Below are positions 18,696-33,485 of a DNA stretch of 64,000 nt, piece after piece. The translations under genes and the position numbers were made by a program. The stretch spans positions 62,001 to 126,000 of the forward strand of contig CALHRZ010000006.1 of NCBI GenBank assembly GCA_938038445.1, in the 5' to 3' direction. Each line of letters begins with the position of its first letter. Position 1 is the stretch's first letter. The DNA comes from an uncultured bacterium. Its GTDB lineage: Bacteria; Verrucomicrobiota; Kiritimatiellia; CAIKKV01. The notes under the pieces were generated by a model that was given only the letters and a program-made list of their open reading frames with translations, was not told the DNA's origin and did not search any database.

Positions 18696-20123
18696 ATGAA
18701 ATTGTGCGTTGACGTCAAAAGTTTTCCGCAGGAAATCGCTATGGAGCTCTACTCGGAACCTCGAACGTCCCAAGCTCGCGACCTCTTCAACAAGGGGTTC
18801 GCCGCACTGGAACGGGGCAATCTGGACTACGCAATCGACATGCTGACGGAAGCCCTCCGCCAGGAACCCCATTGCCTTCAAATCCGCAAGTTTCTCCGAG
18901 CCGCCGAAATCAAAAAATTCCGCTCCCTCCCCTTGGCCAAACGTTTGGCCTCTCTGGTCAACGCGGTCCCCCTTTACCTTCGCACCCTCCTCAATCTGCA
19001 GCGCGGACGCGCCGAAGAAGCTTTCCTGACGGCCGAAGCCCTCCTCCGCATCAATCCCCTCCATAACCATTTTCTGATGCTTTATGCCCATGCGGCGGAA
19101 ACGGCCGGCTACGCCGAAGCCGCCATTCAAACGCTCGCCATGGTTCGCGAATATCGTCCTAAGGATCTTTTAATGATCGAACGGCTCGGCCAACTCCAGA
19201 TGAAAGCCGGCCAGGCCCGTCAAGCACGGGAAGTTTTCGAATTCCTCGCCGAGCAGAAGCCCAACGACGGTCGCATTCTTAAAGAACTCAAAGATGCCAT
19301 GGCGCTCGATAGCATGATGAAAGACGGCTGGACCCAAGCGTCCGCCCAACCCGAAGGCTTCCGCAAGGTGATCCGCGACGAAAAAGAAGCCGTCCTTCTC
19401 GAAAAACGAGACAAGGCGGTTCAAACGACCGACGATACCGCGGTTCTGATCGAAGATACTCTGCGAAAGATTCAAGCCGAACCCGCCAATCTCAACTACC
19501 GTCGTGCCTTGGCCAATCTCTATGCTCAAAGCAAAGAGTTCGACAAAGCCATCGAAACCCTCGAAGAAGCCCGGAAAGTCGCGGGCGGCCGAGACCCCCA
19601 AGTGGATGCCGCCATCACCAACATCCGGCTCGCGAAATTCGATTATGCGATCGAACAGTCCCGCGCGGCCGGTAAGATGGAAGACGCCCAAAACCTCGAA
19701 ACCCAACGCGAAGCGTTTCGGTTCGAAAGCCTCCGGGATCGCGTCGCACGCTACCCCAATGACCTCGGACTTCATTTCGAATACGGAATGGCGCTCTTCG
19801 AACGCAAGCAGTGGAATGACGCAATCCGGGAATTTCAGATCGCCCAGCGAAACCCCGCTGAACACGTCCGCGCCCTCTTCTACCTCGGTCTCTGCTTCAA
19901 AGAGAAAAAACAGTGGGATCTGGCCGCCGAACAAATCGCCGCGGCGCTGGCCGAAACGCCCACAATGTCCGACGCTCGAAAAGAGATGATGTACGAGCTG
20001 GCGCTTGTCTATGAAGCCCTCGGCCGGCACGACAAGGCGCTGGAACTCTTCAAAGACATCTATCAGGTCGATATCGGTTTCAAGGACGTCTCCCAACGCA
20101 TCGAAAAAGGGTACAATTCGTGA
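18696..20123 (+). CDS. TPR-repeat protein
   Basis: 475 residues from ATG 18696; ATG 18741 (GGAAATCGCT before it) is a good alternative, and the track's 18411 lies inside the divergent amidase. Several degenerate TPRs are visible: RDLFNKGFAALERGNLDYAI, RRALANLYAQSKEFDKAIET, LHFEYGMALFERKQWNDAIR and MMYELALVYEALGRHDKALEL. No signal peptide, so a cytosolic scaffold. The function is unknown. The stop overlaps the GTG of the next gene (GTGA). Confidence 0.8.
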   Translation: MKLCVDVKSFPQEIAMELYSEPRTSQARDLFNKGFAALERGNLDYAIDMLTEALRQEPHCLQIRKFLRAAEIKKFRSLPLAKRLASLVNAVPLYLRTLLNLQRGRAEEAFLTAEALLRINPLHNHFLMLYAHAAETAGYAEAAIQTLAMVREYRPKDLLMIERLGQLQMKAGQARQAREVFEFLAEQKPNDGRILKELKDAMALDSMMKDGWTQASAQPEGFRKVIRDEKEAVLLEKRDKAVQTTDDTAVLIEDTLRKIQAEPANLNYRRALANLYAQSKEFDKAIETLEEARKVAGGRDPQVDAAITNIRLAKFDYAIEQSRAAGKMEDAQNLETQREAFRFESLRDRVARYPNDLGLHFEYGMALFERKQWNDAIREFQIAQRNPAEHVRALFYLGLCFKEKKQWDLAAEQIAAALAETPTMSDARKEMMYELALVYEALGRHDKALELFKDIYQVDIGFKDVSQRIEKGYNS

Positions 20124-21376
20124 ACCGCACGGTCTCGCTGCTCGTCATCGGCGCCGGCGGCCGTGGAACGGGTTACGCCGCATTCGCCAAAGCTCACGCC
20201 GATCGTGCTCGAGTCGTCGGCGTCGCCGAACCCCGCCCCTTCTACCGCGAACGCCTCGCCCGTGAGCATGACATCCCCCGCTCCCACGTCTTTGCGGACT
20301 GGAAGGAAGCGGCCGAAAAACCCCGTTTCGCAGACGCCGTCCTGATCTGCACCCAGGACGCGATGCATGCGGAACCCGCAATCGCCTTCGCCGAGAAGGG
20401 GTACGCCATCCTCCTGGAAAAGCCGATGGCCCCCAATCCAACCGATTGCCGCCGCATCACGGAGGCCGTCCTGCGCGCCGGCATCCTCTTTGCCGTCTGC
20501 CACGTCATGCGTTATACCGCCTTTACCCGCCGGCTCCGCGAAGTACTCGATGCGGGAACCATCGGCGACCTTGTCAGCGTTCAATTGCTGGAACCAGTGG
20601 GTTATTGGCATCAAGCCCACTCCTTCGTCCGAGGCGCTTGGCGAAACTCCCTCGAGTCCTCCCCCATGCTGCTCGCCAAATCGTGCCATGATCTCGACTG
20701 GCTCCGCCATATCTTCGGCGTCCCTTGCCGGAAGGTCTCCTCGTTCGGTTCCCTCTTCCACTTCCGCCCCGAAAACCGACCCCACGGTGCCGCCGACCGC
20801 TGCCTCGATTGCGCCGTCGAGTCTCATTGCCCCTATTCCGCCCTTAAAATTTACCTCGGCCGACTGGCACGCGGCCATACCGGCTGGCCCGTCAACGTCG
20901 TCGCTCCGGAACCCACCGAATCCTCCCTCCGCGAAGCCCTTCGCACCGGACCTTATGGGCGTTGCGTCTATGCCTGCGACAACGATGTGGTGGACCATCA
21001 AGTCGTCGCCCTGGAATTCGAAGGCCGCCGTTCGGCCGTTTTCACCATGACCGCTTTCACCCAGGCACGCCATCGCCAGGTCCGCCTGTTCGGCACGCGC
21101 GGTGAAATCACCGGCGACGGCGAAACAATCCGGATTTTCGATTTTTTGAGCGATTCGTTCCAAACAATCGAAACAACCAAAGCCGATGGATCCATTCTCG
21201 GCGGCCATGGCGGAGGTGACTACGGGCTGATGGACGCCTTTATACGAGCCGTCGCCGAACAGAACCGTTCTCCCATCCTTTCAGGACCCGAAGAAACGCT
21301 GGAATCCCACCTCATCGTCTTCGCAGCGGAGAAGGCGCGGCTCGAAAAGCGGGTCGTCACGCCCGCCGAAGTCTGA
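20120..21376 (+). CDS. Gfo/Idh/MocA family oxidoreductase with a Cys-rich insert
   Basis: 418 residues from GTG 20120, coupled to the TPR gene. Rossmann motif VIGAGGRGTGYAAFA, LLEKPMAPN (the EKP lysine), and ARSCHDLDWLRHIF-type candidate catalytic site, here KSCHDLDWL. Residues about 230-260 hold DRCLDCAVESHCPYSALK, a four-cysteine pattern shared by a subset of this family and probably a metal site. Acts on an unknown sugar or cyclitol. The context (TPR, M20 hydrolase) gives no clear pathway. Confidence 0.85.
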   Translation: MNRTVSLLVIGAGGRGTGYAAFAKAHADRARVVGVAEPRPFYRERLAREHDIPRSHVFADWKEAAEKPRFADAVLICTQDAMHAEPAIAFAEKGYAILLEKPMAPNPTDCRRITEAVLRAGILFAVCHVMRYTAFTRRLREVLDAGTIGDLVSVQLLEPVGYWHQAHSFVRGAWRNSLESSPMLLAKSCHDLDWLRHIFGVPCRKVSSFGSLFHFRPENRPHGAADRCLDCAVESHCPYSALKIYLGRLARGHTGWPVNVVAPEPTESSLREALRTGPYGRCVYACDNDVVDHQVVALEFEGRRSAVFTMTAFTQARHRQVRLFGTRGEITGDGETIRIFDFLSDSFQTIETTKADGSILGGHGGGDYGLMDAFIRAVAEQNRSPILSGPEETLESHLIVFAAEKARLEKRVVTPAEV

Positions 21377-23619: not shown

Positions 23620-24132
23620 TTACGCCTTCCTTTGCCGAAGAACACGGAGAACGGCCTCATAATTGGGCTCTTGCGTGATTTCCGGAACCAACTGGGCGTG
23701 CTGGACAATATGGTCAGCATCCAAAATCCATACCGCCCTCGCCAGAAGGCCGCGCAACGGCCCCCCCTCTATTCGAACCCCATATCGTAAGCCGAATTCA
23801 GGCGCGCGGAAGGCCGATAAGGTCAGAATGCGATCCAACTGCTCCACATCGCAAAACCGCTTTTGGGCAAACGGAAGATCCACCGAAACATTGATCAACC
23901 GAACATTCGAGAACGCCGCAATTTCCCGGTTGAACCGGCGGGCGGATGCAGCGCAAACCCCCGTATCAAGGCTCGGCACCACACTCAAGACCTTCCACTC
24001 CCCTCGAAACGCCGCCAAAGAAACTTCTTCCAACCCCGCATTCGTCAACTCGAAATCGGGAGCCTTTGTCCCTTCAACCGGAAAATCTCCTCCTAAAGGA
24101 ATAGGGACCCCTTTAAACAAAACCGTCCGCAT
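23620..24132 (-). CDS. tpx: Thiol peroxidase
   Basis: 170 residues, full length. The peroxidatic cysteine is in SVVPSLDTGVCAASARRF and the resolving Cys in KRFCDVEQLDRI, the atypical 2-Cys Tpx pattern. It reduces hydrogen peroxide and alkyl hydroperoxides with thioredoxin. It lies 17 nt downstream of the six-gene sugar cluster and may share its transcript, which would tie peroxide defence to that pathway. Confidence 0.93.
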   Translation of the reverse strand: MRTVLFKGVPIPLGGDFPVEGTKAPDFELTNAGLEEVSLAAFRGEWKVLSVVPSLDTGVCAASARRFNREIAAFSNVRLINVSVDLPFAQKRFCDVEQLDRILTLSAFRAPEFGLRYGVRIEGGPLRGLLARAVWILDADHIVQHAQLVPEITQEPNYEAVLRVLRQRKA

Positions 24133-24149: not shown

Positions 24150-25142
24150 TCAGTGTACCACAACAGCCCGGCCCGTTTCCAGAGATTCTACCGCCGCCGC
24201 CAAAACTTTCTGCGCCGCAAGGCCGTCCGCACCGCTCCCGTCAATCTGATCCGGCAGAACACCGGCGGCCACCTGTTCGAGAAACGTATGAATCCGATTC
24301 CGAAACGTGTCCTCGAAATCCCGCATGCCCCCGAACACGGGATTCGTGAAAACCGTCTTTTCCGGATTTCCCGCTGGATACAACGTGACCTCACGCCACA
24401 TGTCTTCCAGAACAAAACGACCCTTCGTTCCGGCCGCTTCCACACGCTCCATCGGATGGCCCCGTTCGATATCGTAGCTCCCTGTAAGGGTCCCTATCGC
24501 GCCGCTCTGAAACTGCATCAGAAATTGGGCCGTGCTCCAAATCGTTCGTCCCGGAGCCCGGGTGGCAAAGCATTGGACCCTTTCAATGTCGCCAAAAAAA
24601 TAACGCAGGATGTCCACCGTGTGGGGATTGAGCGCCTTAATCATGAAATACGGCGAACTTTCGTTGGGATTCTTGATCCACATGCCGACATTCATGAATA
24701 AGGGATGTCCGATCCGACCCTCCTCAACCCACCGTTTTGCAAGACGCGCCGCAGGGGTAAACCGATGGTTGAAATTGATGCCCAAACAGCGGCCCGTTTC
24801 CCGGGCCGCCGCAACCATTGCCTCGGCTTCTTCAATCCGATTGCTGATCGGCTTCTCGCACAAAACATGGGCGCCTGCCTTCAGTGCCTGAATCGTCGGC
24901 TCGGCATGGTCGCTCCCATACTCGATACCTCCCGTCGCCACGCTGCACACATCGGGTCGGATCGTTCGAAGCATTTCCTCTGCATCATAAAAAGCGGGGA
25001 CGTTCAGCGCTTTTGCCGCCGTGTCCGCCCGTTCCCGAATCCGATCGCAGACCGCAACCAATTCCGCCAGCGAGTCCTCCCGGTAAATACGGGCATGCCG
25101 ATTCCCGATCGGTCCCATGCCAATGACCGCTACCCTAAGCAT
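24150..25142 (-). CDS. Gfo/Idh/MocA family oxidoreductase (cluster copy 1)
   Basis: 330 residues from ATG 25142; GGAG lies 8 nt upstream and the track's 13-residue extension is not needed. VAVIGMGPIGNRHARIY (NAD(P) site), HVLCEKPISNRIEEAE (EKP lysine), NFNHRFTPAA and KALNPHTVDILRYFF, with the candidate catalytic His. Its motifs closely follow those of 29205-30335 (TGG.E.GS.H.EPT..AL), so the two are recent paralogues. It overlaps the sulfotransferase end by 13 bases. Probably interconverts a sugar and keto-sugar in this cluster. Confidence 0.88.
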   Translation of the reverse strand: MLRVAVIGMGPIGNRHARIYREDSLAELVAVCDRIRERADTAAKALNVPAFYDAEEMLRTIRPDVCSVATGGIEYGSDHAEPTIQALKAGAHVLCEKPISNRIEEAEAMVAAARETGRCLGINFNHRFTPAARLAKRWVEEGRIGHPLFMNVGMWIKNPNESSPYFMIKALNPHTVDILRYFFGDIERVQCFATRAPGRTIWSTAQFLMQFQSGAIGTLTGSYDIERGHPMERVEAAGTKGRFVLEDMWREVTLYPAGNPEKTVFTNPVFGGMRDFEDTFRNRIHTFLEQVAAGVLPDQIDGSGADGLAAQKVLAAAVESLETGRAVVVH

Positions 25143-25906
25143 CCTCTCCTCTCCGCGCTCATTTCCGCCCCATTCGGGCATTCGTAGCCATACTGCCGCA
25201 TCGCCGGTTCAAAAAAGTCGAACCACGTGTTGCCGGAATCGCTCTTCCAACGCCCGACCGTATCCGGGCGAACGGGAATGCGTACAAGCGGAATCCCGAG
25301 AAAATCCTCGATCCGTTTCAACGTCCGTTCCTGATCCAGCACAAAATCCTCAAACCGGACCTCGATCCAGTGGCGCGGCTTCGGGGTGGCCTGCACCAAA
25401 TCATACTGGTACTTCCAGGAGATCGCCCGCCGCAAACGAAGATCATCCGTTTCCGGATAGGCGATTCCCCACCGCCGCAGATCATCCGTAATATGCCCCC
25501 CCACAATGCAGTCCCGGGGATTCCGAATCCAAAAAATGTATCGGATGTCCGGAAAGATCCGCCGAATCCAAGGAAATACCAGCGTCGTTTCGGGAATTTT
25601 CCATCCCCGCCATGGAGCGTCACTCTCCAAAACCGTCCGAAGATACGTGTGGATCAAATCGCAAAAACGGGCAGGAATCGGGGTCGCTTCCAAAGCGGAA
25701 AAATCCCATTCGAGCGCTCCGTTCCACCGGACATGAGGGGCCAGTTCAAGACAGGCGTCATACATCGGCTGCGGCGGCAGCAAATCCCCCGACTCATTGA
25801 GCGGAGTACCCATAAATACCCCGCTGGCCGAAAGCGTGTGAGAAATGGCGCGCGTGCCGGAGTGGCCGCGACCGATGATCGTGACCAGAAACGGATTGTG
25901 TTTCAC
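25130..25906 (-). CDS. Sulfotransferase family protein
   Basis: 258 residues from GTG 25906, which overlaps the preceding stop as GTGA; the track's longer start lies inside the neighbour. The 5-prime phosphosulfate loop is TIIGRGHSGTRAIS near the N-terminus and the 3-prime phosphate motif is YIFWIRNPRDCIVGG, so PAPS is the likely sulfate donor. RFEDFVLDQERTLKRIEDFLGI matches the P-loop sulfotransferase end. No signal peptide, so cytosolic. The acceptor is unknown, possibly the sugar handled by the cluster. A sulfotransferase is not expected next to a sulfatase in a simple degradation operon. Confidence 0.8.
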   Translation of the reverse strand: MKHNPFLVTIIGRGHSGTRAISHTLSASGVFMGTPLNESGDLLPPQPMYDACLELAPHVRWNGALEWDFSALEATPIPARFCDLIHTYLRTVLESDAPWRGWKIPETTLVFPWIRRIFPDIRYIFWIRNPRDCIVGGHITDDLRRWGIAYPETDDLRLRRAISWKYQYDLVQATPKPRHWIEVRFEDFVLDQERTLKRIEDFLGIPLVRIPVRPDTVGRWKSDSGNTWFDFFEPAMRQYGYECPNGAEMSAERRGCLG

Positions 25907-27309
25907 AGCGTCTTTTGCCCCCGTTGCGTCTGGAGCTCCTGTTGAAGCGCTTTCGCCGCCCCCACGGACCCTATGTGCAGTGTGTCGTAGGCCTGCTGCG
26001 CGCTTTGGAACGGGCCGCAACCTTTGTTGTGCCAATCGAGATTGGTATAGATCGGATTCCGACGCCCGGTTTCTTTTTCCCGCCGCGCAATCCAAGAATT
26101 CATCCGGTTTTCCAAAAAGGCGACCACCTCTTTTTCCTCTTCCGCCAGATTCCGGTTCTCTTCGGGATCGCGAATCAGATCGTACAATTCCACCGCAGGC
26201 TTGAAATGAAAATCAGGCTCTAACGCCCGGATCAACTTCCATTGGGGAGTCCGCCAGCCGTGTTTGCGCATCCAGGTGCATTCCGTAATGTAAAACTCGG
26301 CCTGATTTTCAAACGCCTCCCCCCGCATCAGTGGAACCAAACTGCGCCCATCAAATCGAAGGGAGGTTCGAATCCCCATGATCTCCAGAATCGTCGGCAT
26401 CATATCTTTCATTAATACCGTCTCCCCGTGCCGCCGACCGGCCGGCACAACTCCAGGCTGGACCAAGATTAGCGGAATGCGCAGCGTGCAGTCGTAAAGG
26501 CCATGATGGTCAAAATAGCAGTCGTGATCGTAGAGGGTTTCGCCGTGATCGGAATTGATGACCACCAGCGTATCGTCCTCAAGACCCAGGTCGGCAATCG
26601 CCGTCAACAGGTTCTGAATGCATGCATCCATGTAGGCAACCGCACCGTCATACTGGGCAATGATGTAATCCTTGTCCGTACATCCCGGGGGAAACCACGA
26701 AGCAAAGTAATCTGCAAACGGTTTGAAGGCATACACCGGATCGAGGGATCGGTTGTTCTTGTCGAACTCATCGTCCCCGTAAAAAATCCGCTCATACGGT
26801 CGAGGCGGCAGGTAAGGCGAATGGGGATCCATATGCCGTAGAAAGAGGAAAAAAGGCTTCCCTTCCCCCGCCAGCCGTTTCAGTTCCGGTAGAGTGACGG
26901 CGTTCAGATTCTCCGCCTTCGGACTCCGCCCCTTCTCCCATGAACCCCAGCCTTCGTAATCAATGTATTTCTGGAATCCCCGGGACGCCGGATTGCCGCT
27001 GAATCCCACGCAGGTCGTCGCATAGCCTTCCTGTCCCAACACCTCAGCCAGCGTGGTCACATGAGACCCGAGCCCCCCCTTGTGCCGCAGCGCCACAACG
27101 TCCGTCCCGAAGCAGTCCATCCCCGTGAACATCGTCGCGTACCCCGGCGTGGTGGGGATCGATGGGCTAAACACGTTCTCAAAGACCGTCCCCCTTGCCG
27201 CATAACGATCGATGTAGGGGGTGGTCAGGCGGGAATAACCATAGAGGCTCATGTGGTCCGCCCGCAGGCTGTCAATGCCAAAGAGGATCAGGTTGGGTTT
27301 TCTCTTCAT
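25903..27309 (-). CDS. Sulfatase-fold (alkaline phosphatase superfamily) hydrolase with Thr in place of the formylglycine Cys/Ser
   Basis: 468 residues from ATG 27309, GGAG 7 nt upstream; the track extension is ignored. The fold is clear: LFGIDSLRADHMSLYGY, TPYIDRYAARG.VFENVF, HMDPHSPY and NSDHGETLYDH supply metal ligands. However, the maturation motif C/S-x-P-x-R aligns with TTPGYATMFTG (residues 53-63), so Thr53 sits at the catalytic position and Tyr57 replaces the Arg. It cannot be converted to formylglycine. Thr nucleophiles occur in phosphoethanolamine transferases and NPP phosphodiesterases, so a phosphotransfer or phosphodiester role is possible. No signal peptide. It is coupled to the sulfotransferase. 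Confidence 0.85.
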   Translation of the reverse strand: MKRKPNLILFGIDSLRADHMSLYGYSRLTTPYIDRYAARGTVFENVFSPSIPTTPGYATMFTGMDCFGTDVVALRHKGGLGSHVTTLAEVLGQEGYATTCVGFSGNPASRGFQKYIDYEGWGSWEKGRSPKAENLNAVTLPELKRLAGEGKPFFLFLRHMDPHSPYLPPRPYERIFYGDDEFDKNNRSLDPVYAFKPFADYFASWFPPGCTDKDYIIAQYDGAVAYMDACIQNLLTAIADLGLEDDTLVVINSDHGETLYDHDCYFDHHGLYDCTLRIPLILVQPGVVPAGRRHGETVLMKDMMPTILEIMGIRTSLRFDGRSLVPLMRGEAFENQAEFYITECTWMRKHGWRTPQWKLIRALEPDFHFKPAVELYDLIRDPEENRNLAEEEKEVVAFLENRMNSWIARREKETGRRNPIYTNLDWHNKGCGPFQSAQQAYDTLHIGSVGAAKALQQELQTQRGQKTL

Positions 27310-27311
27310 AA

Positions 27312-28385
27312 TTAGGCTCCGTTTTGTGGGTTGGTTTCCGTCAAAAGGACTCGTCGTCCCGTTTCCGCCGATTCGTAACAAGCCAGAGTCATGCGAAGGA
27401 CTGCGGATCCCTCTTCGGCACTCGCGAGAGCCGGCCGTTGACCGTGCAAAAATTCGGCCAGGGGCTTCGCCAGCCCTGCAATGCGTTCCCCGTGATGACG
27501 AACGCCTCGACGAACTTCCACCGTCCAATGCGGATCGCCTTCACGAATCCACCGGAGCGATACACTTCCCTTCATGCGAGGGGTCGCAGCGCTCACCAGA
27601 TCGCCATACTGCTGCACGATCACACCCCGCTCACAAACAAACTCGGTGGTCAGTTCCCCGGCGGGCGCAACGAAGGTGCAGGAAACCTCCGCCAACCGCC
27701 CGTCATCATACCGGAACAGAACAATCCCGTTGTCGTTCCGAATCGCAGGACTCCGAATCGTGGACAGTTCGGCGTAAATACTCGCCGGCTGCCCAAGCAT
27801 CCAATAAATGAAATCTATCGGGTGCGCCGCATCATCCGCAAACAGATCGCGGTTCAGTTCGGGTCGAAGATGCCAGGAGGTCTCAAACCCGGGCCATCGG
27901 TGGGCATTGAGGCAATGGCGGCGACGCACGAGGTAGACCCGCCCCAGTGTCCCTTCTTCCAAGAGCGCCTTCATGCGAAGATTTTGCGGGTCTGCCCGCA
28001 TCTGCCAGACCAACGTGAACGGTACGCCCCCCCGGCGAACGGCCGTCACAATCCGATCCGCTTGTTCCATCGTCAAGGCAAGAGGCTTCTGGAGCAGAAT
28101 CGGCTTGCCCGCCGCTGCCGCCTCTTCCACCAACTCCGCATGGAAGACCGTTTCGGAAGCGATCAGAACGGCTTCCACCTCCGGAAAACGAAGGGCCTCG
28201 GCAGCCGAGCCCACGGTCGCCAGCCCCCAGGGTTGGGCAAATGATCGGGCCCGCTCCCCCTCTCGATCCCAGACCACGCGGGGAATCACTCCCAAAGCGG
28301 GGTTTCGAATCCAACTCTCGCAATAGGCGCGGGCATGGGAATGCGCACATCCAAGCACCGCCAAGCCAACGCGATGACGCCTCAT
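27312..28385 (-). CDS. Gfo/Idh/MocA family oxidoreductase (cluster copy 2)
   Basis: 357 residues. VGLAVLGCAHSHARAYCES in the nucleotide-binding region, PILLQKPLALTMEQADRI (QKP in the place of EKP), and DDAAHPIDFIYWMLG with the candidate catalytic His. It is a different subgroup from the other two copies of the cluster. A single nucleotide separates it from the isomerase-like gene and 2 nt from the sulfatase-fold gene, so the cluster is one transcript. Confidence 0.85.
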   Translation of the reverse strand: MRRHRVGLAVLGCAHSHARAYCESWIRNPALGVIPRVVWDREGERARSFAQPWGLATVGSAAEALRFPEVEAVLIASETVFHAELVEEAAAAGKPILLQKPLALTMEQADRIVTAVRRGGVPFTLVWQMRADPQNLRMKALLEEGTLGRVYLVRRRHCLNAHRWPGFETSWHLRPELNRDLFADDAAHPIDFIYWMLGQPASIYAELSTIRSPAIRNDNGIVLFRYDDGRLAEVSCTFVAPAGELTTEFVCERGVIVQQYGDLVSAATPRMKGSVSLRWIREGDPHWTVEVRRGVRHHGERIAGLAKPLAEFLHGQRPALASAEEGSAVLRMTLACYESAETGRRVLLTETNPQNGA

Positions 28386-28386
28386 G

Positions 28387-29187
28387 TCATCGAGCTCCCA
28401 ACGCCTTCAGACAGGCGTTCATATAGCCATAACTTTCCGCCGCAATCACCGCGCGCGTCGTCAAATCACAAGCCCCCGCACCGATCACCTCGAGACAGAC
28501 AGGACCCCGATAACCACCCTCGACCATCGCCCGGAAATACCCCGGCAGATTAATGTCCCCCCGCCCGCAAGCCTGGTCCCGCGCATCCCCGGGAGTCGGC
28601 CCCCGCCCTTTACAATCGCGAATATGAATATGGCGCACCCGGCTCAGCACTTTGGGAAGGGCATCCTCCGGGTTTTCCCCCGCCCGAAAAATGTGGCTCG
28701 GGTCCATGTCAATCCCAAACCCGGGAGAGGAAATTCGAGCCATGGCGCGAAGCGTGGTGTCGGTATTGTAAATGCATGCCCCCACATGGGCCTTGACACA
28801 GAGCGAAACGCCGGTCGCCGCCGCTTCATCGGCCATCTGCGCCAGAAGGTCCGTCTGGCGGAAAAAATCCTCTTCCCTTCCGGATTTTCCACCCGGGCCG
28901 ACGTTGACCACAGGAATTCCCAACGCGCGAGCCGCCGCAAAAGCCGGACGCAGCCGCTGCGGGTCGAGCGCCGCCACTTCCATGCTCAGCAGTTTCAAAC
29001 GGCGCTGCTCCGCCTTCGCGCGAATAAGGTTCGCCTGCTCTTGCCACCGATCCAACTCGAGATGCTCGCACATCCCCTTGATCGCCGACAGCTCAACCCC
29101 GTCGTAACCACACGCAGCGATGACCGCCAACGCCGTGTCCAGATCCTGGTTCTGAAAGAGAACGGTATTAACGCCCAGTTCGATCAT
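28387..29187 (-). CDS. Sugar phosphate isomerase/epimerase-like TIM-barrel protein
   Basis: 266 residues from ATG 29187, AAAGGAGCGCGAGG upstream. Metal ligands are likely the Glu of DGVELSAI, the Asp/His pair of IDMDPSHIF and the His of HIHIRDCKGRG, with the final Glu in CLEVIGAGA. Family members isomerise or epimerise sugars, and in known glycoside-cleaving clusters (DgpB/DgpC with the Gfo/Idh/MocA-family DgpA) they eliminate or hydrate 3-keto glycosides. Here it is tightly linked to three Gfo/Idh/MocA genes, so such a role is reasonable inference. Confidence 0.85.
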   Translation of the reverse strand: MIELGVNTVLFQNQDLDTALAVIAACGYDGVELSAIKGMCEHLELDRWQEQANLIRAKAEQRRLKLLSMEVAALDPQRLRPAFAAARALGIPVVNVGPGGKSGREEDFFRQTDLLAQMADEAAATGVSLCVKAHVGACIYNTDTTLRAMARISSPGFGIDMDPSHIFRAGENPEDALPKVLSRVRHIHIRDCKGRGPTPGDARDQACGRGDINLPGYFRAMVEGGYRGPVCLEVIGAGACDLTTRAVIAAESYGYMNACLKALGAR

Positions 29188-29204
29188 CCTCGCGCTCCTT
29201 TCCC

Positions 29205-30335
29205 TCAAATCCGTTCCCGAAGTGGATCACCCTTGAGCGGCGGAAGAGGCACCGGCCGAACCAATTGGCCACCGGCCTCGTAGCTTTCGACCGCCGCCTG
29301 AATAACTTCAAGGGTCGCCAGCGCATCCCGCCCCGACGCCCGCAGGTGTTCCAAGGGAACACCATTCGAAACATCCTCCAAAAAGGCATGAATCCGACGG
29401 GGAAACGTCGCGCCAAACTCCCGAATGCCCGTCTCCAACACCTCTGGCTTCGGGCTCTCCCCCAACCCGTACTTCTCGCCCGGCTTCGGCGCCGGCCAGA
29501 AGGTGAGCCGCTCAATGCAATTCTCGATGCAGAAGGTTCCGCGACTCCCCGCCACCTCGCAACTCCACCACCCTCCCAACCCCCATACGGCGTCCCCTCG
29601 ATGGCTGATCAGATAACCAATCGCCCCGTTGGAAAACCGGACGTGCACACTGTTGACGGAAAGCAGGAGATCCCCTTTGTTCGCTCGAAAGCCAGGGGTC
29701 CGGCAAAAGGCCTGTACATGAGTAATGTCGCCACAGAAATACCGCATCACGCTGAAGGGATGTGTCAAAAACGCTTTCAGATGGGCATACGGTTGATTGA
29801 AGCGAGGGGACGGATTGAACGCGTAGGTCGCTTCGCCCCCCTGAAACCCCATTTTGAACAGGATATAGATCAACTCCCCTACCGCTCCGTCGCTCATGTA
29901 TTGCCGCGCCCGTTCCGCTGTCGGGGTGAAATAGTGGTTCAGATTGCAACCCAGATAACGTTGCTTCTCCGCCGCAAAACGGACCATTTCGCGCGCTTCC
30001 CGAATGTCGCTGGAAAGAGGCTTTTCACACAAAACGTGCTTGCCGGCCGCTAGCGCCTCCATCGTGGGCTCAAAATGCCACGAGCCGTTTTCATAGCCCC
30101 CTGTAGTCACATCCACCACGTCCAGGTCCAAGTCCCTCAACATCTCGCTCAGCCGATAATAGCCTTTTACCCCGTAATCCCGGGCCGCTTGATCGGCTTT
30201 TTCTTTCACTACATCGCATACGCCGCACAGTAGGGCAAGCGGATCGGCTTTGAGCGCCTTCGCATGGGTGTTTCCTATGCCGCCCATCCCCACGACTCCC
30301 ACCCGGAGAGGTTTGTTGTCCGTATCCACGCGCAT
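29205..30335 (-). CDS. Gfo/Idh/MocA family oxidoreductase (cluster copy 3)
   Basis: 376 residues from ATG 30335, with GGAAAGGACGGCG upstream; the track's start at 30413 would leave no room for a promoter. VGVVGMGGIGNTHAKAL, HVLCEKPLSSDIREARE, NLNHYFTPTAERA and FLTHPFSVMRYF. Closely related to 24150-25142 but with extra segments. It is the first gene of the six-gene cluster and faces the araC gene across about 110 bases. Confidence 0.88.
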   Translation of the reverse strand: MRVDTDNKPLRVGVVGMGGIGNTHAKALKADPLALLCGVCDVVKEKADQAARDYGVKGYYRLSEMLRDLDLDVVDVTTGGYENGSWHFEPTMEALAAGKHVLCEKPLSSDIREAREMVRFAAEKQRYLGCNLNHYFTPTAERARQYMSDGAVGELIYILFKMGFQGGEATYAFNPSPRFNQPYAHLKAFLTHPFSVMRYFCGDITHVQAFCRTPGFRANKGDLLLSVNSVHVRFSNGAIGYLISHRGDAVWGLGGWWSCEVAGSRGTFCIENCIERLTFWPAPKPGEKYGLGESPKPEVLETGIREFGATFPRRIHAFLEDVSNGVPLEHLRASGRDALATLEVIQAAVESYEAGGQLVRPVPLPPLKGDPLRERI

Positions 30336-30445
30336 CGCCGTCCTTTCCAAACTCGGGTTTCTGAATTCGATGGAATCAATCCTATCCCGATCCAAGGGGG
30401 AATACCTTGACAATCATTTCATTATTTAGCACTTTTTTTTCATCC

Positions 30446-31327
30446 ATGAAAACCATCCCGGCCAAAGCGGTGTTCTCCGATCCCCGCTTTCCGCTGGCCG
30501 TTCGCCGCCACGATTCTCATGAACCGACGGAGCTTCACAGCCATGACTTCCATGAACTCGTCGTCATTCTGGCGGGCCGTGGCCGCCACTTGACCGAACG
30601 AGGAGACTATCCGATCACCGCGGGCGACGTCTTCCTCATCCGTGGCGAAATGGCCCACGGGTACGCCGATACCAAGGGCATGACGTTGGTCAACATCTTC
30701 TTCGACCCCCGTCGCCTTCGCCTCCCTATCCAGGCCATGGCTGAAGTGCCCGGCTATCAAGCGCTCTTCCGGGTGGAGCCTCGCCTGCGCCACGTCCGCC
30801 GCATCCCCCCGCGTCTCCATCTCCCACCCCACGATCTGGCTCGAGCCGCCGCAATGATCGCGGAACTCTCTTCGGAACTCGAAAAGCGCAACCCCGGCTA
30901 CCGTTTTGCGACAATGGCGGAATTGATGCGCCTTCTCCTCTTTCTCGCCCGCCGTTATTTCCGTTCCGGAGGTTCGGAACGACAACCTCTCCAACCCATC
31001 AGTGAACTCCTTAGCTACATCGAAGCGCATTACCCGGACCGTATCACCTTGGCCGACCTCTGCCGCCGGGCCGGCATGTCCAATGCCACGCTCAACCGAG
31101 CCTTCCATGCGATCATGGGATGCCCACCCCTGGAACATGTAATTCGCGTCCGCCTTGCCCACGCCGCTGAACTGCTCCGGCAACCCAGCATCCGAATCAC
31201 CGAGGCCGCCTTCGAGTGCGGCTTCTCCGATGCCAACTACTTCGCCCGTCAATTCCGATGCCGCATGGGAATGTCCCCCCGAGCCTGGCGTCAACTCCAT
31301 CAATCCTCATCCGGCCGGCGGCCGTAA
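30446..31327 (+). CDS. AraC-family transcriptional regulator
   Basis: 293 residues from ATG 30446. The track's TTG 30407 is the first base of a TTGACA that may be a promoter element. N-terminal cupin effector domain (LHSHDFHELVVILAGRGRHLTERG, GDVFLIRGEMAHGY); C-terminal two-helix-turn-helix domain (ADLCRRAGMSNATLNRAF, RITEAAFECGFSDANYFARQF). AraC-type regulators of this class sense sugars and usually control the adjacent operon. It is divergent from the six-gene cluster, so it probably regulates that cluster. No Shine-Dalgarno before the ATG. Confidence 0.92.
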   Translation: MKTIPAKAVFSDPRFPLAVRRHDSHEPTELHSHDFHELVVILAGRGRHLTERGDYPITAGDVFLIRGEMAHGYADTKGMTLVNIFFDPRRLRLPIQAMAEVPGYQALFRVEPRLRHVRRIPPRLHLPPHDLARAAAMIAELSSELEKRNPGYRFATMAELMRLLLFLARRYFRSGGSERQPLQPISELLSYIEAHYPDRITLADLCRRAGMSNATLNRAFHAIMGCPPLEHVIRVRLAHAAELLRQPSIRITEAAFECGFSDANYFARQFRCRMGMSPRAWRQLHQSSSGRRP

Positions 31328-32883
31328 GAAGGCTCCTGCTCCCCCAACCGCAGCCAGAGCGTCAGCGCCGTGCCCGCCTGCCCGAACCGGGGAATCTCGC
31401 CCGCCAACCGATATCGGCTTCTCAAAGCTTCTTCCAATTTCCGCCGATCCTCTGAGGAAAGTTCGGCGATCTCCGGCGCCGCGATGGCCAGCCCATAGCC
31501 GCTGAACGCCGCCACTGGGGCCGGCCCTTCTCGCAACAACCGCTCCAACCCCGCAGGCGTCAGAACACGCCGTACAGCCGCCTCCGATTCCTTCAAACCG
31601 GGAAAGATACAAAAGGGCCCCAATTCCAAACCCGCAGGAACCGTTCGCCGGGATTCGACCGCCAGATAAAGATCCTGCGTCAACAACATAGTCCCTCCCG
31701 GATCCAAACGCTCGACGGCCCTCGCGGCTTCCCGTAACACCGCAAGCGGCGGCCGATCCTTCATTCGCCACCAGATCCGGTCGCGCTCCCGCACCATCCA
31801 TTCCTGATTCAATGGAGAGGAGATCGCCGCCAAAAGCGCTGCGGCCAGCACAATCGGCCGGAGATATGCCCTCCACGAGGCGAAGGATGCGGCCAATGCG
31901 GCGGCCAACGCCGCCGCGAGGGGAAAAACGGGGACCTGATAGTCATCGTATGGAAATGGAGCCATCGCATGAATCACCGTCATGCCCGCGACCGAAAGCC
32001 CAACAACCATCCTGCACGGATCAAGCGCCTCCTCCCCCCGCCTGGCCTCCTTCCGGAGCACCCACCAGGCCGAGCCGCCCAGCAGAAGGACAAGATAAAA
32101 CGACTGAACCACCCGGCTCGCAAACCCGGCCTTCAAAAGCAGAGACGCTCCCACGCCGCCCGTCACGCGGCCGGCATGATACGCAAACAGGCCAAACCGG
32201 AATCCCTCCGGCGCCGCAAGATAAAAGGGAATAAACAGCGCACCCGCGCCCACCGCCACCCCAAGACAACCCGCGCGAAACGCCCCGCCATATTCCCGCC
32301 GCTTCCAAAACAAAACCGCCAAAGCAGCCCCAACGGCCGCCACCGCCGACAACCGCACCGCAGCCGCGGCCGTCAGAAAAAAAAGCGCCGCAAACGCGCG
32401 AAACGCCCGCCGCGGCTCCACGGGACGAGGAAAAACAGCAACACCTCCCGTGAGCAACAGACCGCAAAGCGCATACGTTTTGACAACCGACATGAAATAC
32501 GCCTGAACCGGATTGAGCAGCGCCAGGCAGAACGTGGCAAAGGCGGCCGCCGAGGCCGCGGAAGAATCCTTCGACAACCGCGCGGCCAGACGGGCCGACA
32601 GAAGAGTCGCCGCCCCCCCAAGCAAAGCGGTGACCACTCGCCCACCGGTCACACCCCACTGATCGACAACGGGTACAAACAAGGAATAAACGAACGGCCA
32701 GAGAGGCCCCTGGGTAAAGGCAAAATCCCGGTAGGGCCAAAACCCCTTTCGCACCAGATTCGCCGCGTAGAGATACCACCCCTCATCCTGATTCAAATCA
32801 CCCCAGAGAAGATGGAAAAACACCAGCCCAACTCCGGCCAAACCGGCGGCCAACCACCCTCCCCGTTCTCGAAGGGACGCCAT
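31300..32883 (-). CDS. Polytopic membrane protein, ArnT/GT39-like glycosyltransferase
   Basis: 527 residues from ATG 32883 (GGGAGGTGTC just upstream; the track start at 32958 reaches into pyrE). About ten hydrophobic segments. The first periplasmic loop has DLNQDEGWYLYAANLVRKG, where the acidic pair in the DxD/DE position is typical of lipid-linked-sugar transferases of the GT39/GT83 fold. It probably transfers a sugar from a polyprenyl carrier to an envelope glycan. Convergent with araC, 28-base overlap of the ends. Confidence 0.7.
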   Translation of the reverse strand: MASLRERGGWLAAGLAGVGLVFFHLLWGDLNQDEGWYLYAANLVRKGFWPYRDFAFTQGPLWPFVYSLFVPVVDQWGVTGGRVVTALLGGAATLLSARLAARLSKDSSAASAAAFATFCLALLNPVQAYFMSVVKTYALCGLLLTGGVAVFPRPVEPRRAFRAFAALFFLTAAAAVRLSAVAAVGAALAVLFWKRREYGGAFRAGCLGVAVGAGALFIPFYLAAPEGFRFGLFAYHAGRVTGGVGASLLLKAGFASRVVQSFYLVLLLGGSAWWVLRKEARRGEEALDPCRMVVGLSVAGMTVIHAMAPFPYDDYQVPVFPLAAALAAALAASFASWRAYLRPIVLAAALLAAISSPLNQEWMVRERDRIWWRMKDRPPLAVLREAARAVERLDPGGTMLLTQDLYLAVESRRTVPAGLELGPFCIFPGLKESEAAVRRVLTPAGLERLLREGPAPVAAFSGYGLAIAAPEIAELSSEDRRKLEEALRSRYRLAGEIPRFGQAGTALTLWLRLGEQEPSYGRRPDED

Positions 32884-32909
32884 GACACCTCCCTCGCGCA
32901 CCTGAACAA

Positions 32910-33485
32910 TCAAGAGCCCGGATGGGTCAGCGGAATTCCCTGCCGGCAAAGCGGACAAGCCTCCGGGGAATACGTCACGGGCGCCATCGCCAACAACCGA
33001 AACAGCGGAACATCGAGCATCGCCTGCCCCGCGCTTCGGTCCACCAAGACCGCCGCCGCCATCACAATGCCCCCCGCCTGCCGAACAATCGCAATGGTTT
33101 CCTGGACCCTTCCCCCCCGCGTCACAACGTCCTCGGCCACGAGATACCGTCGGCCCGATGCAATGCGAAATCCCCGACGCAACACCAGCGTCTGGTTTTC
33201 CTTTTCTGCAAAAATAAAGGGTCGTTTCAAGGCGCGTGCCACCTCGTGCCCAACGACGAGCCCGCCCAGCGCCGGAGCAATCACCTCCTCCACCGAATCG
33301 GCGCCCAGTTGTCCGACAACTTGTTCCGCAAGGGCACGGCCCATCCGCTCCGCCACTTCCGGATCACGCAACACGAGGGCGCATTGAAAGTAATGGGGAC
33401 TATGCAATTTACTGCGCAGCTCAAAATGGCCTTCGAGCAAAGCCCCGGAATCGCGAAATTGTTGCAGAACCTGGCGGTCGTTCAT
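32910..33485 (-). CDS. pyrE: Orotate phosphoribosyltransferase
   Basis: 191 residues. LRSKLHSPHYFQCALVL and the PRPP-binding motif YLVAEDVVTRGG mark PyrE. It joins orotate and PRPP to orotidine-5-phosphate in pyrimidine synthesis. It has a good GGAGG at about 33490. No other pyr gene is near. It lies between an envelope glycosyltransferase gene and a heptosyltransferase-like gene, probably by chance. Confidence 0.93.
   Translation of the reverse strand: MNDRQVLQQFRDSGALLEGHFELRSKLHSPHYFQCALVLRDPEVAERMGRALAEQVVGQLGADSVEEVIAPALGGLVVGHEVARALKRPFIFAEKENQTLVLRRGFRIASGRRYLVAEDVVTRGGRVQETIAIVRQAGGIVMAAAVLVDRSAGQAMLDVPLFRLLAMAPVTYSPEACPLCRQGIPLTHPGS

Follow-up and report, generated by a model that had tools for sequence, protein, structure and literature searches.

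Why would a bacterium keep a sulfotransferase in one gene cluster with a sulfatase-fold protein, three Gfo/Idh/MocA oxidoreductases and a TIM-barrel protein? This question is raised by a stretch of 64,000 nucleotides (the window in this text) from an uncultured bacterium of the Kiritimatiellia (Verrucomicrobiota; assembly GCA_938038445.1, contig CALHRZ010000006.1, positions 62,001 to 126,000), in which six minus-strand genes, named here GfoA, TIM, GfoB, SULF, ST and GfoC from the first to the last, face an araC gene. The original prediction, made from the letters of the window, had proposed a pathway that modifies or cleaves sugars, with the sulfotransferase ST coupled to the sulfatase-fold enzyme SULF. 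Our analysis supports the architecture and conservation of the cluster, a putative promoter element, a fold and a cofactor supply for ST that correspond to sulfotransferases using 3'-phosphoadenosine-5'-phosphosulfate (PAPS), the absence of the sulfatase site from SULF and a linkage to L-rhamnose genes. Tentatively, and with slightly less than even confidence, we read the cluster as an AraC-controlled operon for the oxidation-elimination-reduction catabolism of an ester-decorated L-rhamnose conjugate.

Conservation and Regulation of the Gene Cluster

The six open reading frames (ORFs) and their junctions agree with the prediction when the best start is chosen for each ORF, with a 17-bp gap, a 1-bp gap, a 2-bp gap, a 4-bp overlap and a 13-bp overlap from GfoA to GfoC, and the araC gene diverges from them on the plus strand (Table 1). 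The families named for these genes were also recovered by Pfam (three PF01408, PF01261, PF00884, PF13469 and AraC). No NCBIfam equivalog was found, the scores of the Gfo, TIM and SULF proteins being all far under the curated cut-offs, so that none of them belongs to a characterised family.

Relatives were searched in 117 and then in 388 related genomes, where about 5% of the phylum sample had an ST orthologue, with identities of 52-69%, and later in the GTDB species genomes, which yielded 373 ST relatives. The locus comparisons used the best 80 of these 373 and, since those loci are the closest to the ST of the window, the linkage figures favour close kin. They came from Lentisphaerota, Verrucomicrobiota, Planctomycetota, Chloroflexota, KSB1, Poribacteria, Hinthialibacterota, Spirochaetota and Deinococcota, and in most of them SULF, GfoC, a second Gfo gene and TIM adjoin ST on the same strand. 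Among the 44 loci flanked on each side by 6.5 kb or more, SULF was present in 36, TIM in 35 and at least two Gfo genes in 35, while ST, SULF, TIM and at least two Gfo genes occurred together in 30. The recurrence of the same gene set in many genomes of several phyla places the cluster beyond chance; the genes stay linked in relatives, contrary to the unlinked arrangement that the prediction had named as its refutation, and the data support one coordinated unit facing araC.

The complete order araC<>GfoA-TIM-GfoB-SULF-ST-GfoC was found in four loci (L043, L044, L045 and L051), the order in Chloroflexota is mostly SULF-Gfo-ST-GfoC-TIM, and a divergent araC homologue occupies the equivalent place in loci of the Planctomycetes-Verrucomicrobia-Chlamydiae (PVC) group. 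GfoB is mostly limited to PVC-group loci and is dispensable outside them, the core being two Gfo proteins, TIM, ST and SULF. Identities in linked loci were 63-77% for GfoA, 50-70% for TIM and, in most loci, 66-75% for GfoC, and ST reached 52-73% across phyla. The ST tree mixes the phyla beyond the need of single origins, with binning and paralogues as caveats. According to the prediction, no such cluster was known to have been described, and none that combines a sulfotransferase, a sulfatase-fold protein and Gfo proteins was found in the open-licence papers searched. The sulfatase half of the predicted pairing falls, as detailed below.

The closest curated families of the AraC regulator were RhaR and RhaS, below their cut-offs. 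Comparison of 12 araC-GfoA regions (the window and 11 PVC loci) revealed an element, T[GC]C[TA]-N16-[GA][TA]CAAGG, once in each of the 12 and with exact spacing. The pattern occurred 20 times in 2.5 Mb (both strands), 11 of them in araC-GfoA regions, so that about 0.008 occurrences would be expected by chance in the 12 regions. Read towards araC, the element gives TTGAC and then a 17-bp spacer, and it may therefore be the araC promoter with an overlapping operator. Because the conserved element covers the TTG at 30407, the start of araC is probably the ATG at 30446. Across the genome the spaced pattern had six matches against four for a reversed control, thus showing no regulon beyond the operon, and consensus promoter and terminator scans gave no match.

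SULF Lacks the Sulfatase Site

Sulfatases carry Cys-X-Pro-X-Arg at the nucleophile site. Residues 53-57 of SULF are TTPGY, and T-T-x-x-Y occupies this site in all 53 module homologues that span it. In the alignment, T53 corresponds to the formylglycine site, Y57 to the Arg of CxPxR and S14 to the second metal Asp/Gln, with H268-H269 aligned to the Lys-Arg of sulfatase 5g2v; C-x-P-x-R is kept by the sulfatase-fold paralogues of the same genome. Residues D13, S14, T53, Y57, D254, H255, H268 and H269 do not vary among more than 50 homologues (53-57 for the Thr, Tyr, Ser and His residues). SULF was therefore rejected as a formylglycine (S1) sulfatase, having neither Cys-X-Pro-X-Arg nor the Asp-Asp/Gln pair nor the sulfate-binding Lys, and what remains of the predicted sulfatase-fold enzyme is the fold (PF00884).

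The residues of SULF point instead to the metal set of phosphoethanolamine transferases and LtaS, with a Thr nucleophile. In MCR-1, Glu246, Thr285, Asp465 and His466 hold one zinc and His478 another (PMC5175174), and D13, T53, D254, H255 and H268 of SULF stand at like positions. Judging from these residues, SULF would be a Thr-nucleophile enzyme with phospho-ester rather than sulfo-ester chemistry, in which case the predicted coupling of a sulfotransferase to a sulfatase is not present, while its sulfotransferase half is likely genuine. Only 12 residues of the protein precede its first catalytic Asp, and an N-terminal membrane domain is thus absent. Its AlphaFold2 model (predicted local distance difference test, pLDDT, 66.8) was too poor and was not used.

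ST and the Supply of PAPS

The AlphaFold2 model of ST (pLDDT 89.8) retrieved PAPS sulfotransferases as its first 34 Foldseek matches, the best being tyrosylprotein sulfotransferases (TPST) bound to 3'-phosphoadenosine-5'-phosphate and the sulfotransferases of CurM and of olefin synthase (OLS), and membership in PF13469 follows from score (Table 1) and fold. The 5'-phosphosulfate loop, GRGHSGTR, deviates from the usual one; Arg128 is invariant. In addition, a strong match to adenosine-5'-phosphosulfate (APS) kinase was found in 39 of 40 carrier genomes, the exception (G001) being 89% complete, and within the phylum of the window APS kinase occurred in 17/18 carriers versus 58/187 non-carriers (Fisher p ~1e-7, kinship uncorrected). 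In L044 the operon continues on one strand as GfoC-RhaM-CysD-CysNC, and in L072 CysD and CysNC lie downstream of the operon. The model matches, the APS kinase of the carriers and the CysD-CysNC genes after the operon in two relatives indicate that ST is likely PAPS-dependent.

Oxidoreductases and TIM Barrel

Gfo enzymes usually carry Asp-x3-His. GfoA and GfoC have a (near-)invariant Lys-Ala-x-x-x-His in its place, and GfoB keeps the Asp; the extra Lys could fit an anionic substrate. The closest PDB relative of GfoA is DgpA (7xr9, E 3e-22), matched mainly over the NAD domain, and the analogy drawn in the prediction, to systems in which Gfo and isomerase-like proteins act by oxidation and elimination, remains the best available (precedents in PMC7676230, PMC10628242, PMC8563793). 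The TIM protein has invariant E70, H134, D160, H186, H188 and E233, and its profile weakly reaches IolI, IolE and the O-glycoside beta-eliminase AtOGE (8bvk, E 2e-5). The conserved His134 belongs to the strand-5 motif and is reminiscent of the His that acts in catalysis in AtOGE (PMC10628242). No separate beta-subunit ORF was found within the cluster, where adjacent genes overlap by up to 13 bp or stand at most 17 bp apart. Membership in DgpABC, defined by a heterodimeric eliminase with a small beta-subunit, and in the levoglucosan pathway, defined by LgdA and two TIM proteins, was considered and rejected.

Linkage to L-Rhamnose Genes

Genes for L-rhamnose isomerase (RhaA) and for a RhaD/short-chain dehydrogenase protein (rhamnulose-phosphate aldolase/dehydrogenase), scoring above curated cut-offs, directly follow the module in 16 Chloroflexota loci, and L-rhamnose mutarotase (RhaM) occurs in the neighbourhood of the module in 12 further loci, exceeding the TIGR02625 equivalog cut-off in L044, L052, L060 and L142. 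One locus (L064) has a GH78-type rhamnosidase as well. ATP-binding cassette (ABC) importers and LacI regulators beside the Chloroflexota copies suggest uptake and catabolism, and the neighbouring RhaM, RhaA and RhaD genes probably point to catabolism of L-rhamnose. The genome of the window encodes RhaA on the same contig, about 61 kb away, and RhaM and a RhaB-like kinase elsewhere; RhaA was found in 19/20 carriers of the phylum. The possibility that ST replaces rhamnulokinase was rejected, RhaB-like kinases being present in 27/29 carriers examined (355-531 bits, one above the cut-off of 528 and the rest below).

The hydrolases of the module vary: L080 and L113 have a serine hydrolase of PF00144, Lentisphaeria have an esterase fusion, and in L134, L135 and L143 (Caldilineaceae) ST is directly followed by a true formylglycine-type sulfatase. 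This variation fits substrates with varying ester decorations. An L-fucono-lactonase-like amidohydrolase lies between SULF and ST in L143. Outside the window, the same genome has a run of formylglycine-type sulfatases (G000:C6:140-147 kb; L148, L149) about 6 kb before its RhaA gene.

Feature List and Neighbouring Genes

A thiol peroxidase gene (NF001808, 206 bits; 23620-24132, minus strand) starts 17 bp past GfoC on the same strand and is possibly co-transcribed with the operon in the window; in the loci of relatives it is outside the conserved gene set. A fourth Gfo/Idh/MocA oxidoreductase (20120-21376, plus strand), with a peptidase-like ORF after it, lies outside the operon, and a 552-aa membrane-type protein with no Pfam or NCBIfam match adjoins araC (31300-32958, minus strand). 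The sole Rfam match in the window was an FMN riboswitch (RF00050, 51636-51778, minus strand, 84.9 bits).

Table 1. Operon genes, regulator and intergenic element, with positions in the window.
Feature	Positions	Strand	Evidence or remark
GfoA, Gfo/Idh/MocA oxidoreductase, operon gene 1	29205..30335	-	PF01408, 92.6 bits
TIM, AP_endonuc_2/xylose-isomerase-like barrel, proposed eliminase or isomerase	28387..29187	-	PF01261, 92.7 bits
GfoB, Gfo/Idh/MocA oxidoreductase, canonical D-x3-H motif	27312..28385	-	PF01408
SULF, soluble alkaline-phosphatase-superfamily enzyme, Thr at nucleophile position	25903..27309	-	PF00884, 162 bits
ST, sulfotransferase, GTG start	25130..25906	-	PF13469, 60.6 bits (cut-off 27)
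GfoC, Gfo/Idh/MocA oxidoreductase, final gene of conserved set	24150..25142	-	PF01408, 100.6 bits
AraC-family regulator, cupin-like sensor domain	30446..31327	+	start revised to probable ATG 30446
Conserved regulatory element T[GC]C[TA]-N16-[GA][TA]CAAGG, between araC and GfoA	30405..30431	-	

Proposed Pathway and Alternatives

In the catabolic pathway that we favour, the substrate would be an intracellular (cytosolic) compound that contains L-rhamnose, or is converted to it, and bears ester groups. One of the Gfo proteins (GfoA or GfoC) would oxidise a ring hydroxyl to a ketone, the TIM protein would catalyse a metal-dependent beta-elimination of the glycosidic or another C-O bond, with rehydration or isomerisation, and the second Gfo protein would reduce the product, which would leave the redox balance neutral; L-rhamnose would then enter the ordinary RhaM/RhaA/RhaB/RhaD route. 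SULF would use its Thr nucleophile to remove or transfer a phospho-type ester, and ST would sulfate a hydroxyl of the substrate or of an intermediate at the expense of PAPS. We favour a role in which sulfation turns this hydroxyl into a leaving group that the elimination can remove, as with the CurM and OLS sulfotransferases; we infer this role, as well as the substrate, the regiochemistry and the order of the steps. The narrower sequence of PAPS-driven sulfation of a sugar hydroxyl, Gfo oxidation of the neighbouring carbon and TIM-barrel elimination of sulfate or aglycone is, in our judgement, rather doubtful.

Several observations weigh against rhamnose-conjugate catabolism. A main weakness is that PAPS is spent on sulfation, which is odd in catabolism. 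The position of the 3'-phosphate Ser in ST is Gly in 66/80 sequences, and the similarity of the TIM protein to IolI and further isomerases is no weaker than its similarity to the eliminase 8bvk. The linkage to RhaM, RhaA and RhaD is a property of relatives; in the window itself, neither a rhamnose gene nor a transporter stands beside the operon. RhaA is widespread in the phylum in any case (115/195 genomes, 59%), so that adjacency, not presence, is the evidence for rhamnose, and 11/38 carriers examined, mostly of Chloroflexota type, had no RhaA match. Finally, some Victivallales-type genomes have ST with no SULF or TIM alongside.

In these Victivallales-type genomes, ST stands without the other module genes as an esterase fusion or with a major facilitator superfamily (MFS) gene alongside. 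The fusions join ST to a glucuronoyl-esterase-like domain (PF22244; L057:8649-10619, L058:9252-11282 and L062:9547-11571), and fusions of this type are often found beside a calcineurin-like phosphoesterase.

Among the alternatives, the one that survives best keeps the same rhamnoside catabolism and places sulfate outside the sugar chemistry, with ST conjugating the freed aglycone (e.g., a phenol) for export. PAPS sulfotransferases commonly conjugate small hydroxyl compounds, and MFS or export-type genes adjoin ST in L053 and L054. Moreover, Gfo/TIM systems are known to free flavonoid aglycones (PMC8563793, PMC10628242). We consider this explanation unlikely, however, since ST is as conserved across phyla (52-73%) as the pathway enzymes, which is a better fit to one fixed substrate than to a diversity of aglycones, and the main loci have no constant exporter. 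Less likely again is a biosynthetic operon for a sulfated 6-deoxyhexose-containing glycan or small molecule, the rhamnose genes tuning the sugar pool. Sulfated exopolymers are produced by Kiritimatiellae, which also encode sulfotransferases of PF13469 (PMC7356697), and ST has DegT-like and PhyH-like genes nearby in L049 and L050. The module, however, has no conserved association with glycosyltransferases, nucleotide-sugar genes or export machinery, and its neighbours are rhamnose catabolism genes, ABC importers and AraC/LacI regulators.

A new glycoside cleavage of the DgpA-DgpB-DgpC or levoglucosan type, in which ST and SULF merely trim substituents, appears improbable: although DgpA is the best PDB match of GfoA and the TIM profile weakly reaches AtOGE, the cluster has no small beta-subunit gene and one TIM gene, LgdA gave 79 bits against a curated cut-off of 650 and no CGE alpha-subunit appeared among the PDB matches listed. 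Catabolism of a phospho- or sulfo-inositol, in which Gfo would be an inositol dehydrogenase and TIM an inosose dehydratase or isomerase, is very improbable, because the best NCBIfam matches, IolG (125 bits) and IolE (33 bits), lie far under their curated cut-offs (355 and 290 bits) and the neighbours are rhamnose rather than iol genes, even if IolI and IolE are among the PDB relatives of TIM.

Sulfation is normally biosynthetic or detoxifying, and a PAPS-dependent sulfotransferase fixed in a conserved, regulated sugar-catabolism operon of several phyla would be unexpected. If sulfation does take part in the degradation chemistry proposed here, it would represent a new way to activate sugars for bond cleavage. 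Additionally, the soluble Thr-nucleophile family to which SULF belongs has more than 50 members; they are annotated as sulfatases but probably are not, so that counts of sulfatases in PVC and Chloroflexota genomes call for caution. With the linkage to rhamnose genes, the question of the substrate becomes open to direct testing.

Comparison With Known Systems

An activating group in carbohydrate breakdown is normally introduced by phosphorylation, and in the proposed pathway sulfation would serve as the metabolic activating group of sugar breakdown. A precedent is the sulfonation by CurM and OLS, which activates a beta-hydroxyl for decarboxylative loss (PMC3903477). Their sulfotransferase domains ranked 3 and 7 among the Foldseek matches of ST and share with the proposal the PAPS-dependent sulfonation of a hydroxyl as activation for loss, but they are part of a polyketide megasynthase and act on acyl chains, whereas ST is a stand-alone protein encoded with sugar-type enzymes.

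SULF resembles the formylglycine (S1) sulfatases in overall fold and PF00884 and departs from them in the active site, where Cys, Arg, the second Asp/Gln and Lys are replaced by Thr, Tyr, Ser and His. With MCR-1/EptA and LtaS it shares the acidic-Thr-Asp-His pattern of ligands and also, about 13 residues past the Asp, a His of the second site; unlike them, it is soluble and has no N-terminal membrane domain.

The levoglucosan pathway LgdA-LgdB1-LgdB2-LgdC (PMC7676230) likewise combines two Gfo proteins with a TIM barrel, and by analogy the set described here could give oxidation, elimination, hydration and reduction. It has one TIM gene, not two, the LgdA model reached 79 bits where its cut-off is 650, and ST and SULF have no counterpart in that pathway. 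The operon also resembles the DgpA-DgpB-DgpC, CGE and OGE systems (PMC8563793, PMC10628242), in which Gfo and TIM-barrel genes also share one cluster, GfoA being nearest to DgpA in the PDB and TIM weakly similar to AtOGE. It differs from them in its single TIM gene, its two or three Gfo genes and the lack of a small beta-subunit gene, and it adds ST, a Thr-type enzyme of the alkaline phosphatase superfamily and neighbours for rhamnose metabolism and PAPS supply.

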